Part shown: one piece after another, positions 9,988 through 36,164 of the stretch | Position numbering within the stretch: position 1 is the stretch's first letter | Layout: each line of letters starts with the position of its first letter | From: Qipengyuania gelatinilytica | GTDB lineage: Bacteria; Pseudomonadota; Alphaproteobacteria; Sphingomonadales; Sphingomonadaceae | NCBI RefSeq assembly: GCF_019711315.1 | Contig: NZ_CP081294.1 | Span: forward strand, 1,550,001-1,614,000 | Direction: 5' to 3' | Length of the DNA: 64,000 bases | Translations under genes and position numbers: made by a program | The notes under the pieces: model-generated | The model's database searches: none | The model's input: only the letters and a program-made list of their open reading frames with translations | Told to the model about the DNA's origin: nothing

Positions 9988-12000
9988 TCACGGGCGCAAA
10001 TCCGGCGGAGTCGCTTCGGCCTTGAGCATCGCGATGGCTTCCTCGAGGCTCATCACCTTCTGGTGCTGCTGGCCCAAGGTGCGGACGGCAACGGTGCCTT
10101 CCTCGGCCTCGCGATTGCCGACCACCAGCAGGTGCGGGACCTTGGCGTGGCTGTGTTCGCGCACCTTGTAGTTGATCTTCTCGTTGCGAAGATCGCTTTC
10201 CACGCGGATGCCCGCGGCTTCCAGCTTGGCGACGGCTTCCTTAGCGTAATCGTCTGCGTCCGAGACAATGGTCGCGACCACCGCCTGCGTCGGGGCGAGC
10301 CATACGGGCATGCGGCCCGCGTAATGCTCGATCAGGATACCGATGAAGCGCTCATACGAACCGAAAATCGCGCGGTGCAGCATAACCGGGCGGTGCTTCT
10401 CGCCGTCTTCGCCGACATAGCTCGCATCGAGGCGTTCGGGCAGCACGCGGTCGCCCTGGATCGTGCCGACCTGCCAGGTGCGGCCGATGGCATCGGTGAG
10501 GTGCCATTCGAGCTTGGGCGCGTAGAAGGCGCCTTCACCGGGGAGTTCCTCCCAGCCGAATTCCTCGCTCATCATGCCCGCCTCTTCGACGGCGTCGCGC
10601 AGTTCCTGTTCGGCCTTGTCCCAGTCCGCGTCCGAACCGAGCCGCTTTTCGGGGCGCAGCGCGAGCTTGATGGAGAAGGTGAAGCCGAAGTCCTTGTAGA
10701 CGCTCTCGGCGAGCTTGCAGAAGGCACGAACCTCGTCGACCACCTGGTCTTCGGTGCAGAAAATATGTGCGTCGTCCTGCGTGAACTGGCGCACGCGCAT
10801 CAGCCCGTGGAGCGCGCCATGCGGTTCGTTGCGGTGGCAGCAGCCCATCTCGCCAAGGCGGATCGGCAGGTCGCGGTAGGAGGTGATGCCCTGCTTGAAG
10901 ACCAGCACGTGGGCCGGGCAGTTCATCGGCTTGATCGCCATCCAGTCGGCGTCTTTCGCAACGCTGGGGTGCGCACCGGCCCCGCTGTCGTCCACCTCCG
11001 GCACCATGTCCGGCACGGCGAACATGTTCTCCGCATATTTGCCCCAGTGACCGGATTGCTCCCACTGGCGCACGTCCATCAGCTGCGGCGTCTTGATTTC
11101 GCGGTAGCCCGCGCCGTCCATCTTGCGGCGCATATAGGCTTCGAGCTCGCGCCAGATCCGGTAGCCGTTGGGGTGCCAGAAAACGCTGCCGTGCGCTTCT
11201 TCCTGCAGATGGAAGAGATCCATCTCGCGGCCCAGCTTGCGGTGGTCGCGCTTGGCGGCTTCTTCGAGACGCGTAAGATGCGCATTCAGCTGCTTCTTGT
11301 TAAGCCAGCCCGTGCCGTAGATGCGCGTGAGCTGCGCATTCTTCTGGTCGCCGCGCCAGTAGGCACCGGCGACGCGCATGAGCTTGAAGGCCTGCGGGTC
11401 GAGCTTGCCCGTCGAGGCAAGGTGCGGACCGCGGCACATGTCGAGCCAGTCTTCGCCGCTACGATAAACCGTCAGCTCTTCGCCCTCGGGAAGTTCCCTT
11501 GCCCACTCGGCCTTGAAGACTTCGCCTTCGGCCTCCCACTTGTCGATCAGCTGCTGGCGGCTCCAGACCTCGCGCGTCAGCGGCTTGTCGGCCTTGATGA
11601 TACGGCGCATCTCCTCCTCGATCGCGGGGAGGTCGTCCATGGAGAACGGCTCGCGCGTGTCGGGCGCCTTCACATCGTAATAAAAGCCGTCGTCCGTCGC
11701 CGGGCCGAAGGTGATCTGCGTGCCGGGGAAGAGCGATTGGACGGCCTCGGCCAGCACGTGCGCAAAGTCGTGGCGAGCGAGTTCGAGCGCGTCTTCCTCG
11801 TCGCGGCTCGTCACCAGCGCCAGTTCGGCATCGCCATCGAAGGGGCGGTTGATGTCGCGCAATTCGCCATCGACGCGCGCGGCAATTGCGGCCTTGGCGA
11901 GGCCGGGGCCGATCGCGGCGGCGACGTCGGCAGGCGTGCTGCCCGGTTCCATTTCGCGCACCGAACCATCGGGCAGGCTGATCTTCAAAAGTTCCGTCAT
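9988..12000 (-). CDS. thrS: Threonyl-tRNA synthetase
   Basis: This class II synthetase charges tRNA-Thr in the cytoplasm. The 670-residue product has an N-terminal TGS domain (1-65) and the SAD editing domain with HDFAH (His77, His81) and DMCRGPH. The catalytic domain shows KPMNCPAHV (zinc Cys), the motif-2 region [20 protein letters not shown] (zinc His) and the motif-3 region [11 protein letters not shown], and the C-terminal anticodon-binding domain follows. I take ATG 12000 ([13 protein letters not shown]) as the start because the TGS fold begins there. An upstream in-frame ATG at 12060 would add 20 non-conserved residues encoded within the leader RNA. A threonine-codon-rich leader peptide and hairpins lie 158-229 bases upstream, so expression is probably governed by Thr-tRNA charging (see findings). 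Confidence 0.96.
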
Positions 12001-12086
12001 CGTCTCATCCGTTGCGTTGCGACGCTGCCTTGTGTCTGGCCTCGACTTGACGAGGCCCATGGCACAATAGCGCGTACGCTTGAAGC

Positions 12087-12125
12087 GGCGTTTTGGGAGA
12101 ATTTCGCGATTTCGGGAGAAACGCC
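12087..12125 (-). other. Second inverted repeat in the thrS leader RNA
   Basis: Reading the minus strand, GGCGTTT (12125-12119) directly follows the main hairpin and can pair with AAACGCC (12093-12087), a perfect 7-bp stem around 25 bases. It may be a further switchable stem or may place the thrS ribosome-binding region; the role is inferred. Confidence 0.45.
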
Positions 12126-12126
12126 T

Positions 12127-12146
12127 GCCACCCGAAACCGGGTGGC
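12127..12146 (-). promoter_or_regulatory. Attenuator-type hairpin in the thrS leader
   Basis: On the minus strand GCCACCCG (12146-12139) and CGGGTGGC (12134-12127) form a perfect 8-bp GC-rich stem with a GTTT loop, 11 bases after the leader-peptide stop. Its left arm can alternatively pair with the end of the leader-peptide coding sequence: CGGGT at 12175-12171 with ACCCG at 12143-12139, and GCGG at 12166-12163 with CCGC at 12148-12145. These pairings are mutually exclusive, as in classical attenuators. The following bases AGGCGTTTCTC are only weakly U-rich, so termination may need Rho or the control may be at another level. Confidence 0.6.
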
Positions 12147-12157
12147 GGCAGCTCGCG

Positions 12158-12229
12158 TCAGTCCGCGACTACCCGCCCCCGGTTGCCCGAGGTGGTGGTA
12201 GTAGTGGTCGTGGAGCCGCTGTGCGTCAT
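12158..12229 (-). CDS. Threonine-rich leader peptide of thrS (23 aa)
   Basis: A 24-codon frame runs from ATG 12229 to TGA 12158 on the strand of thrS. It begins M-T-H-S-G-S, continues with seven consecutive threonine codons (codons 7-13, using ACG, ACC and ACT), and ends [10 protein letters not shown]. With codon 2, eight of 23 residues are Thr, the amino acid that thrS loads onto tRNA. This is the signature of ribosome-stalling leader peptides in attenuation. No Shine-Dalgarno is visible, but a promoter-like pair upstream would start transcription at the A of the ATG, so the peptide may be translated from a leaderless mRNA. The frame is too short for ordinary gene calling. The coding call is strong from composition and position; the mechanism is inference. 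Confidence 0.78.
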
Positions 12230-12236
12230 GCAGGCA

Positions 12237-12265
12237 CAGATAGCGGCGGGAGGTTAAATTCTCAA
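12237..12265 (-). promoter_or_regulatory. Candidate promoter of the thrS leader transcript
   Basis: On the minus strand TTGAGA (12265-12260, overlapping the phoD stop codon) and TATCTG (12242-12237) are separated by 17 bases. Seven bases then lead to the A of the leader ATG at 12229. The geometry fits a housekeeping promoter giving a leaderless transcript, although the -10 box matches the consensus at only three positions. Confidence 0.45.
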
Positions 12266-13926
12266 CCCGCTTCCAGCTCGCGCGCGCCGGCGAGGGTGGA
12301 GAGGCGCTTGGTCGCGATCACCCCGGCGCCCTTTTCGCGCACGCTCGAAAGGAAGCGGTACTCGCTGGTTGCGCGGGTGGGCGTGAGTTCGACAGCCATG
12401 TATCCGCGCTGCGACGCATCCATCCATTGCAGTTCGGGATTGCGCTGCACCAAGGCCCCGGCGATCGCCTGCGGGGGAAGTTGCGGCAGGAAATTCTCGA
12501 ATCCCGGTGAACACACGGACTGCCCGCCGAATTCGACGCCGACCGCCTCGCCCCCGTGGGCAAGGTCGAAGGCCCAGGCATTATGGGTGTCGCCTGCGAG
12601 GCTCACGAGGTTTGCATCCGCGGCGAGAGCCGCCTCGAACAGGCGACCGCGCGCGGCGGGGTAGCCATCCCATGCATCCATGTTGAGCGGCAGCTCCGCG
12701 CGGCTGGCCAGGGCGCCAGCGACAACCCGTTCGCGGACATAGGACGGGACATCGTCGGGCAGCGTATCGGTGATCGAGGTAGCCGATGCGAGCTTGCCCA
12801 TCAGCACCTGCTGGACGAGCACCTGCCAGGTCTTGCCGCCCGATCCGGAGCGCGCGAGCCCTTCCGCCAGCCAGGCCTGCTGGCCGGCACCGAGCACCTC
12901 GCGGGCAGGATCGGCATAGTCGCCATCGCGGAAGGCAGTCAGCCGTGCGATCGCCTCCTCCGGCGAAGAGGTTCCGCGCAAGAGCGTGTTGTAGTCGAAT
13001 TGCTGCGAGCGGGCGGACAGGCGGGTTTCGAGACGAAAGAGCGTGGCAAGGTCGCCGACCTCATAGGCCGCCCAAGGTTCGTCCGATACCGGCATCCATT
13101 CGCGATAGGCCTTCATCGCCGCGCGCTTGCGCACCGACCAGTCACCCTCTGTTTCGGGCTGGTGGTTCTGCGCGCCGTCCTTCCAGCTGTCGTTCGCGCT
13201 TTCGTGGTCGTCCCAGCCGGCGATCATCGGATAGAGCTGGTGGAGACGCTGGAGATCGCGGTCCGCGCGATAGGTTGCGTAACGAGCGCGATAATCCGCC
13301 AGCGCCACGGTTTCCGATTGCGGATCGAGCAAGGCGCGGCCCGGAAGGGTCTGTGCATCCGAGGGGTAGGTGCCTTGCGGAAATTCGTAGAAATAGTCGC
13401 CGAGGTGGAGCGCACAGTCGAACTCGTTCGCCTCGGCAGCATGGCGGTAGGCATTGAACCAGCCAAAGCCGATGTTCGAGCAGGAGAATACCGCCATGCG
13501 CCAGCTGGCGGTCGGCCCCTCGGGCAGTGTGCGCGTGCGGCCCATGTCGGACACCGAACCATCGGGCGCGGTAAAGCGGAAATAGTACCATTTGCCCGGC
13601 TCGAGACCTTCGGCCCAGGCCTTGCAGCAGAAATCATTGGCAGGCGAGGCGGTGACCTTGCCTTCTGCTACCACGCGGCGGTTCGCGTCGGCCTCCATCA
13701 CCTGCCAGCCGATCTCGGTGTCTTGTGCCGCGACATAGCGCGTCCACAGGAGCGCGCGGTCCTTCCCCGGCTCGCCACTCGCAACGCCATGCGTGAAACC
13801 GGTTGCCGATGTCCGCGCGGCCAGAGGCGTCGCCACGAGACCTGCCCCGGCGGCCGCGCCCTTGAAGAGCGACCGCCTGTCCAGCGCGGGCATTCCTGGC
13901 GACTGCGGCGGTTCGGTCAAAGACAT
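12262..13926 (-). CDS. phoD: PhoD-family alkaline phosphatase / phosphodiesterase, Tat-exported
   Basis: PhoD enzymes are periplasmic or secreted phosphatases and phosphodiesterases that use Ca and Fe and release phosphate from organic phosphate esters. The start at ATG 13926 (GAGGAG about 8-13 bases upstream) gives 554 residues. It places a twin-arginine signal DRRSLFKGAAAGAGLVATPL at about residues 16-35, ending near an Ala-x-Ala region. The N-terminal PhoD domain follows (FTHGVASGEPGKDRALLWTR), then the phosphatase domain with FSCSNIGFGWFNAYRH, LGDYFYEFP, AGWDDHE and LAGDTHNAW, where metal-binding Asp, Asn and His residues lie. A longer frame to 14106 exists but adds 60 residues with no signal character. 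No Pho box was identified. The gene ends 33 bases before the thrS leader peptide. Confidence 0.93.
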   Translation of the reverse strand: MSLTEPPQSPGMPALDRRSLFKGAAAGAGLVATPLAARTSATGFTHGVASGEPGKDRALLWTRYVAAQDTEIGWQVMEADANRRVVAEGKVTASPANDFCCKAWAEGLEPGKWYYFRFTAPDGSVSDMGRTRTLPEGPTASWRMAVFSCSNIGFGWFNAYRHAAEANEFDCALHLGDYFYEFPQGTYPSDAQTLPGRALLDPQSETVALADYRARYATYRADRDLQRLHQLYPMIAGWDDHESANDSWKDGAQNHQPETEGDWSVRKRAAMKAYREWMPVSDEPWAAYEVGDLATLFRLETRLSARSQQFDYNTLLRGTSSPEEAIARLTAFRDGDYADPAREVLGAGQQAWLAEGLARSGSGGKTWQVLVQQVLMGKLASATSITDTLPDDVPSYVRERVVAGALASRAELPLNMDAWDGYPAARGRLFEAALAADANLVSLAGDTHNAWAFDLAHGGEAVGVEFGGQSVCSPGFENFLPQLPPQAIAGALVQRNPELQWMDASQRGYMAVELTPTRATSEYRFLSSVREKGAGVIATKRLSTLAGARELEAG

Positions 13927-36079: not shown

Positions 36080-36164
36080 TGGTGCGGGTGGTGGGACTCG
36101 AACCCACACGTCCAAGGGACAGGGGATTTTAAGTCCCCGGCGTCTACCATTCCGCCACACCCGC
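36080..36164 (-). tRNA. tRNA-Leu (anticodon UAA)
   Basis: On the minus strand the acceptor arms GCGGGTG (36164-36158) and CACCCGC (36090-36084) pair, followed by discriminator A and an encoded CCA (36082-36080). The anticodon stem GGGGA/TCCCC encloses the loop CTTAAAA, giving anticodon TAA for leucine. The long variable arm and 85-nt length are right for a class II tRNA. The T-arm GTGGGTTCGAGTCCCAC is intact. Confidence 0.97.

Follow-up and report, generated by a model that had tools for sequence, protein, structure and literature searches.

The thrS gene of Qipengyuania gelatinilytica is preceded by a short reading frame with a run of threonine codons, which raises the question of whether the supply of Thr-tRNA controls the gene through a translated leader peptide. 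The window analyzed here comprises 64,000 nucleotides of contig NZ_CP081294.1, and the frame is placed between a PhoD-like gene (12262 upwards) and thrS. Based on comparison with related loci, the element is, with high probability, a ribosome-mediated attenuator of thrS that senses Thr-tRNA. The gene, the frame and the codon run are located as follows.

12000-9988, minus strand: thrS, threonyl-tRNA synthetase (TIGR00418, 643.8 bits, cut-off 383.65)
12229-12158, minus strand: leader peptide frame of 23 codons plus stop (24 with the stop), predicted to lie on a leaderless mRNA
12211-12191, minus strand: Thr run of seven codons (ACG ACC ACT ACT ACC ACC ACC), the proposed sensor

The ThrS protein contains the Pfam domains TGS, tRNA_SAD, tRNA-synt_2b and HGTP_anticodon and is 94-95% identical to its homologues in Qipengyuania aestuarii and Erythrobacter vulgaris. 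Since the protein matches its relatives only from the ATG near 12000, a 690-aa thrS annotation would probably be too long; the gene most likely starts with the ATG at 12000 (MTELLK), and the earlier in-frame ATG at 12060, inside the promoter-like element P2 described below, is probably not the start. An earlier note, made from the sequence alone, had described the leader frame on the minus strand at 12229-12158, and reading of the sequence and its translation confirms it, with threonine at codon 2 and at the seven successive codons 7-13. The leader stop is followed by 157 bases before the likely thrS start at 12000. When the region 12262-12000 was folded, only 4 out of 200 shuffles did as well or better (z = -2.89). 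A search for six successive ACN words across the single 2.83-Mb contig of the genome gave five overlapping matches at two places, the leader being one, and the same pattern read backwards as a control gave 10 matches versus 5 for the forward search. The rarity of the ACN run alone is a weaker argument than its position upstream of thrS. The sole other run is found on the minus strand at 818423-818445 of contig C1 of the genome (G000).

A Thr-rich leader is present upstream of thrS in 55 out of 80 loci from relatives, 52 of them identified by rule and three added by eye (L033, L046 and L059). A recognized leader is absent from 25 of the 80, one of which (L081) has just 62 nt of upstream sequence. 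A further 100 thrS upstream regions were drawn from 118 genomes of the order; judged by eye, 20 out of 49 loci of the same family carry a leader and none of 51 loci from seven other families carries a convincing one, the latter showing no more than occasional short frames that contain 4-5 Thr. Overall, 58 short frames with at least five Thr in nine residues lie within the 1.1 kb upstream of thrS in the 81 sources and 16 frames fulfilling the same definition lie on both strands of the rest of the 684 kb, which corresponds to densities of 0.651 versus 0.0125 per kb (approximately 50-fold).

The leaders contain 5-12 Thr codons each and many follow the pattern M-A-x-x-x, Thr run, ..RGR-VAA. The 56 leaders (the window plus the 55 loci) encode threonine with ACC (248 codons), ACT (77), ACG (71) and ACA (22), and the share of ACT is 18% versus 5.5% in the thrS genes. 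All four third bases are used while the amino acid is kept, which points to selection for threonine codons. The RGR motif, in turn, is written CGG-GGG-CGG in 38 of the 44 leaders that have it, although CGG accounts for 15% of the Arg codons and GGG for 12% of the Gly codons in the thrS genes of the relatives, and this preference for uncommon codons points to selection on the RNA (pairing). Outside the Thr run and this RNA arm the peptide is variable.

In three loci (L006, L010 and L045) the leader is kept 629-660 nt upstream of thrS with another gene in between, and the switch would govern both genes, or the inserted gene first. The inserted gene of L010 has no Pfam match and a weak RNase AS/3'-exoribonuclease-like match (E = 1.3e-5, 25.6 bits versus a cut-off of 200). 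A fourth locus (L159) possibly also has a gene between leader and thrS. In L042 the leader frame is kept and only 47 nt separate its stop codon from the thrS match; RNA segments 3-7, defined below, are apparently missing, and this locus may have lost the switch naturally.

The leader and the sequence after it contain eight RNA segments that can form five helices, named here by the segments that pair.

12191-12187, minus strand: segment 1 (CUCGG), directly after the Thr run, pairs with segment 2 and would lie under a ribosome that stalls late in the run
12182-12173, minus strand: segment 2 (CCGGGGGCGG), from the end of codon 16 to codon 19, pairs with segment 1 or 3
12148-12138, minus strand: segment 3 (CCGCCACCCGG), partner of segment 2 (ON) or 4 (OFF)
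12134-12127, minus strand: segment 4 (CGGGUGGC), 3' arm of the hairpin 12146-12127
12140-12131, minus strand: segment 4L (CGGUUUCGGG), the end of 3, the loop and the start of 4, with segment 5 as its ON partner
12116-12107, minus strand: segment 5 (CCCGAAAUCG), partner of 4L
12125-12119, minus strand: segment 7 (GGCGUUU), which forms the 5' side of the distal hairpin 12125-12087
12093-12087, minus strand: segment 6 (AAACGCC), which closes the distal hairpin on its 3' side; the U-poor sequence GCUUC comes next

The hairpin at 12146-12127 that had been reported directly after the leader is exact, a fully paired 8-bp stem capped by a loop of four bases. A competitor for its left arm within the leader codons exists as proposed, with the difference that the conserved arm is 12182-12173 and not 12175-12163. 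For the comparison among species L042, which has a deletion after the stop codon, was omitted from all alignments. Alignment A1 holds 39 of the other 55 leaders, and 16 were omitted because their loops carry inserts, their downstream parts have diverged or a gene has been inserted; 28 of the 39 (A2) formed the basis of a covariance model. The model matches 51 places in the 81 sources (684 kb), upstream of thrS by their coordinates, and these matches make up alignment A3. It also gave 17 matches in the 100 further loci of the order, again upstream of thrS by coordinates, and under stricter filters one match each in 45 out of 149 genomes of the family (28 out of 96 genera).

Each helix was tested by comparing the pairing energies of a leader's own arms with those of arms from other species (39 aligned leaders, 2000 permutations). 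None of the 2000 permutations reached the observed value for helix 1:2 (z = -3.2), 2:3 (z = -4.7), 3:4 (z = -3.5), 4L:5 (z = -8.9) or 7:6 (z = -7.6), and nine control pairings ranged from z = -1.7 to +2.4. The strongest covariation of the five is displayed by 4L:5, where own arms beat foreign arms in 35 out of 38 cases, and 7:6, where they do so in 35 out of 35. A further pairing (6:8) that would form a hairpin after the distal stem is attractive by eye and was not supported by the permutation test (z = -1.8).

The helices combine into two states. In the 51 sequences the ON state (2:3 plus 4L:5), whose structure was unused in the alignment fitting, shows 93.3% paired cells and 39 double changes versus 15.3 in shuffled data, and versions of the structure slid along the alignment reach at most 61.3%. 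The OFF state (3:4 plus 7:6), whose structure was used in the fitting, shows 95.3% paired cells and 73 double changes versus 18.7; the number of OFF pairs that show any double change (8 versus 6.3 shuffled) is not beyond chance (52 out of 500 shuffles). Double changes occur at several pairs of 4L:5 and at all seven pairs of 7:6. At least six of seven pairs are retained by 2:3 in 47, by 3:4 in 50 and by 7:6 in 44 of the 51 sequences, and at least seven of nine pairs by 4L:5 in 41, with rows that have inserts in the 3:4 loop counted as failures.

Segment 3 and the region of segment 4 each have two covarying partners, which is the mark of a switch. Since 4L:5 encloses segment 7 and leaves segment 6 outside, 4L:5 and 7:6 are mutually exclusive as simple hairpins; a pseudoknot is possible. 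The comparison of relatives therefore demonstrates the helices, their conservation and their competition, and the loss of either the Thr run or the pairing among relatives, which would have spoken against the proposal of the earlier note, is not what was found: both are kept and the arms covary. Furthermore, the locus displays two features expected of an attenuator, a run of Thr codons in a short frame upstream of the cognate gene and mutually exclusive helices with one arm in the last codons of the leader. Neither a T-box riboswitch nor the threonine operon leader of Rfam was matched in the window at the gathering threshold, and 11900-12400 gave no match to the threonine operon leader or any other Rfam family at E values up to 1. 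The sole Rfam match in the window at the gathering threshold is a tRNA gene (36083-36164, minus strand).

Support for the switch from folding is mixed. Ensembles were folded for 39 sequences and a helix was counted as formed at four or more expected pairs. Without a mask, the predicted folds contain 1:2 in 17, 2:3 in 23, 3:4 in 12 and 7:6 in 27 of the sequences. With segments 1 and 2 masked, 3:4 forms in all 39 and 7:6 in 36; with the Thr run through segment 1 masked (a stalled ribosome), 7:6 forms in 8, 2:3 in 24, 3:4 in 14 and 4L:5 in 6, and the window's own fold retains 3:4 under the stall mask. A scrambled segment 2 lowers 7:6 equally (1.9 versus 1.8 pairs), and the toggle in the folds is therefore no specific proof of switching.

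From the geometry of the segments we infer how a ribosome could gate the two states, from its stalling through the succession of steps to the cut in expression. Transcription from a promoter P1 (described below) would start at or near the leader AUG and the leader would be translated at once on a leaderless or nearly leaderless mRNA. When Thr-tRNA(Thr) is scarce, the ribosome would stall in the Thr run and cover segment 1, 2 would pair with 3, and 4L would be free to pair with 5. The 4L:5 helix would keep segment 7 in its loop and prevent the simple 7:6 hairpin, allowing the polymerase to proceed into thrS (ON). When Thr-tRNA is plentiful, the ribosome would reach the stop codon and cover segment 2, 3:4 and 7:6 would form, and expression derived from P1 would be curtailed (OFF). 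In 43 of the 56 leaders the distance from the stop codon to the first base of a segment-3 pattern is 9-12 nt (four leaders lack a match to it), and a ribosome at the stop codon would thus cover segment 2 and could leave much of segment 3 free. The simple picture of one terminator hairpin and one antiterminator that had been proposed for this locus is partly borne out and has to be revised, since the antiterminator arm is 12182-12173 and the helices 4L:5 and 7:6 extend the switch. In the his attenuator of Escherichia coli and Salmonella several competing helix pairs relay the position of the ribosome to a distal hairpin, and neighboring segments share one arm. Here, in contrast, 4L:5 and 7:6 would be incompatible because segment 7 lies inside 4L:5, or the two would combine into a pseudoknot.

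The distal hairpin at 12125-12087 is a better candidate for the effector than the hairpin at 12146-12127. No canonical intrinsic terminator was found in 11950-12350 and the U-tract terminator of a classical attenuator is thereby missing, which, together with a promoter-like element further downstream, justifies the doubt that had been expressed about the termination step. The U content after 7:6 is low (a mean of 2.6 U in the next 8 nt in 51 sequences) and termination may occur by a route other than a U-tract. The cut may occur in the weak CUUC/CUCUUUC tail that follows 7:6, or Rho may be required for it. The stretch between segments 7 and 6 contains 17% G versus 34% in the whole element (C is 37% versus 35%), and such a G-poor loop might suit Rho. 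Furthermore, the spacing is rigid, with 3 nt from 7 to 5 in 40 and 12-14 nt from 5 to 6 in 45 of the 51 sequences. A tentative extension of the model, to which we give the smaller share of our expectation, is that the ribosome selects between tandem hairpins (3:4 and 7:6) and an H-type pseudoknot of 4L:5 and 7:6 that masks the G-poor stretch from Rho. If true, the locus would represent a ribosome-gated pseudoknot or Rho attenuator that works without the classical U-tract terminator.

Two promoter-like elements flank the switch.

12265-12237, minus strand: P1, predicted promoter with TTGAGA (12265-12260), a spacing of 16-17 nt and (C)TATCTG (12243-12237)
12085-12057, minus strand: P2, promoter-like element with CTT (12085-12083), N20 and CCATGG (12062-12057)

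The -35 element of P1 shares bases with the stop codon of phoD, the gene upstream, and transcription is predicted to start at the A of the leader ATG (12229, within 2 nt). A similar layout is seen by eye in relatives, many of which have a -35 element of the TGAC or TTGAG type upstream. A -10-like pattern, [CTG]TANNT, begins 13-17 nt before an in-frame leader ATG (the one nearest to the Thr run, or up to seven codons further upstream) in 40 of the 56 leaders, and 13-15 nt before it in 39. A generic sigma-70 scan of 11950-12350 reported no consensus promoter, neither P1 nor P2.

P2 follows the consensus CTT-N20-NYAWKG, with 17 nt between its two hexamers. The exact N20 spacing is found in 45 out of 53 leader-bearing loci versus 4 out of 28 others, spacings of 17, 18, 19, 21 and 23 are found in none of the leader-bearing loci, and a looser second box raises the counts to 48 out of 53 leader-bearing loci and 9 out of 25 leaderless rows. 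A weight matrix scores 34.5 at thrS versus 12.6 at the next best site in 64 kb. P2 was rejected as an ordinary house-keeping promoter, since the window contains no comparable second site and the generic scan is silent; the same two observations indicate a thrS-specific promoter or operator, or a structured RNA. The P2 block can also fold into a hairpin whose arms covary weakly (z = -3.3 with 53 combinations, z = -2.4 with the 45 from leader-bearing loci). The promoter-like reading is kept as the likelier one because of the invariant spacing, and P2 is probably a second promoter that supplies basal thrS transcription. As it lies downstream of the switch, some transcription of thrS may escape this control.

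Several alternative explanations share parts of this evidence. The same leader and switch might act on the translation or decay of a long leader-thrS mRNA instead of on termination, for which the missing U-tract speaks and also the three loci with an inserted gene (L006, L010 and L045), where the start codon of that gene follows shortly after the distal hairpin with a purine-rich stretch between. However, thrS starts 86 nt past segment 6 in the window and approximately 50-90 nt past it in the aligned relatives, which is far for direct masking by these hairpins, and this explanation is considered unlikely. A leader transcript whose main role is in trans, as small RNA or as peptide (compare rnTrpL/peTrpL of Sinorhizobium meliloti), with thrS driven by P2 alone, would agree with the strong conservation of P2, its presence before thrS in 9 of 25 leaderless rows, and the trans action that available text of PMC7298713 describes for attenuator RNAs. 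Such a role is very unlikely, given that the sensing codon fits the downstream gene, thrS in the fetched loci, and that the peptide varies outside the Thr run and the RNA arm.

The threonyl-tRNA synthetase of E. coli binds its own mRNA, and the enzyme might likewise bind the leader RNA or the P2 hairpin, with the Thr codons being secondary. The weak covariation of the P2 hairpin and its restriction to thrS in the window are in line with such binding, which would, however, account for neither the Thr run nor the covarying arms and is highly improbable as the main explanation. P2 as a mimic of the tRNA-Thr anticodon arm before the start codon, as in the E. coli operator, appears less likely, as by eye its loop seems not to fit a 7-base anticodon loop with a Thr anticodon in many species. 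Finally, a functionless simple ACN repeat deserves a thought because trinucleotide-like runs arise by slippage, the genome has one other ACN run, and the backward control pattern is commoner than the forward one; conservation, position, varied third bases and covariation refute it, and the chance that the leader is such an artefact is negligible. The preferred reading is accordingly that of a leader-peptide attenuator acting on transcription into thrS.

The known pheST attenuator uses Phe codons and a canonical terminator. Leader-peptide attenuation is named for the synthetase genes pheST, trpS and leuS in the accessible part of one source (PMC1262725), where the gammaproteobacterial pheST case resembles the present one in being an aminoacyl-tRNA synthetase operon. 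A close counterpart, known from Streptomyces lividans TK24 (PMC8079986), is the leader peptide thrL ahead of thrS: as far as the available text goes, thrL shares with the present leader the regulation of thrS, the Thr codons, a leaderless transcript (here only predicted) and a hairpin without a U-rich tract, and it differs in having two Thr codons, a different 18-aa peptide and an origin in another phylum. The leaders described here have 5-12 Thr codons, together with two competing structures that covary. Within the Alphaproteobacteria, the portions at hand describe a leader peptide that precedes trpS in Caulobacter crescentus, also a synthetase gene of the class but for a different synthetase and amino acid (PMC4117421), and SEP5 of Sinorhizobium meliloti, a proposed leader peptide with six Thr and three Lys codons that is likewise a small Thr-rich frame but lies upstream of an aspartate dehydrogenase gene and is conserved only in Sinorhizobium (PMC10117765). 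The trpL leader of S. meliloti, going by extracts of two papers, is also a leaderless frame with ribosome-mediated attenuation, but it has Trp codons and precedes the biosynthetic gene trpE, and rnTrpL also acts in trans (PMC7298713, PMC10117765).

No description of a thrS attenuator in the Alphaproteobacteria was found in the literature searched, although mention in subscription papers is possible. The statement of the earlier note that no such leader had been described for thrS in the Sphingomonadales holds within the same literature, with the thrS leader of S. lividans known from the text available (PMC8079986). As synthetase attenuation and thrL are already known, the kind of mechanism is known and the case, with its extended relay, is apparently new for the Sphingomonadales. 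The thrS gene of this family joins the short list of synthetase genes that apparently sense their own product via a leader peptide, and the two covarying structures make each step of the switch directly testable. The missing U-tract here and in Streptomyces raises the common question of how GC-rich attenuators end transcription.

Outside the order, 60 thrS loci of the class were collected from 60 genomes (of 76). The covariance model matched none of these 60, and short frames with at least four Thr in nine residues are present in nine, two of which (L195 and L214) are convincing by eye. L214 (genome G286, another alphaproteobacterial family) has a Thr-rich leader (MFKRPTIETTATTTLLEGP) whose stop codon lies 344 nt before the thrS family match, and the sequence CCCTCC..GGAGGGTTTTTT after the leader and before thrS is a textbook terminator with six T at its end; L214 is probably an independent thrS attenuator. 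In L195 (genome G273, from a second such family) the stop codon of a Thr-rich leader (MRTHPVLRSTATTTTTATGGRWRMRA) lies 464 nt before the thrS family match, TTGACA is followed by an ATG approximately 30 nt downstream, and a GC-rich hairpin follows the leader. Together with thrL of Streptomyces, these two leaders and the present one suggest that leader-peptide control of thrS has arisen on several occasions. A third locus among the 60 (L240) contains a weak candidate for a Thr leader.
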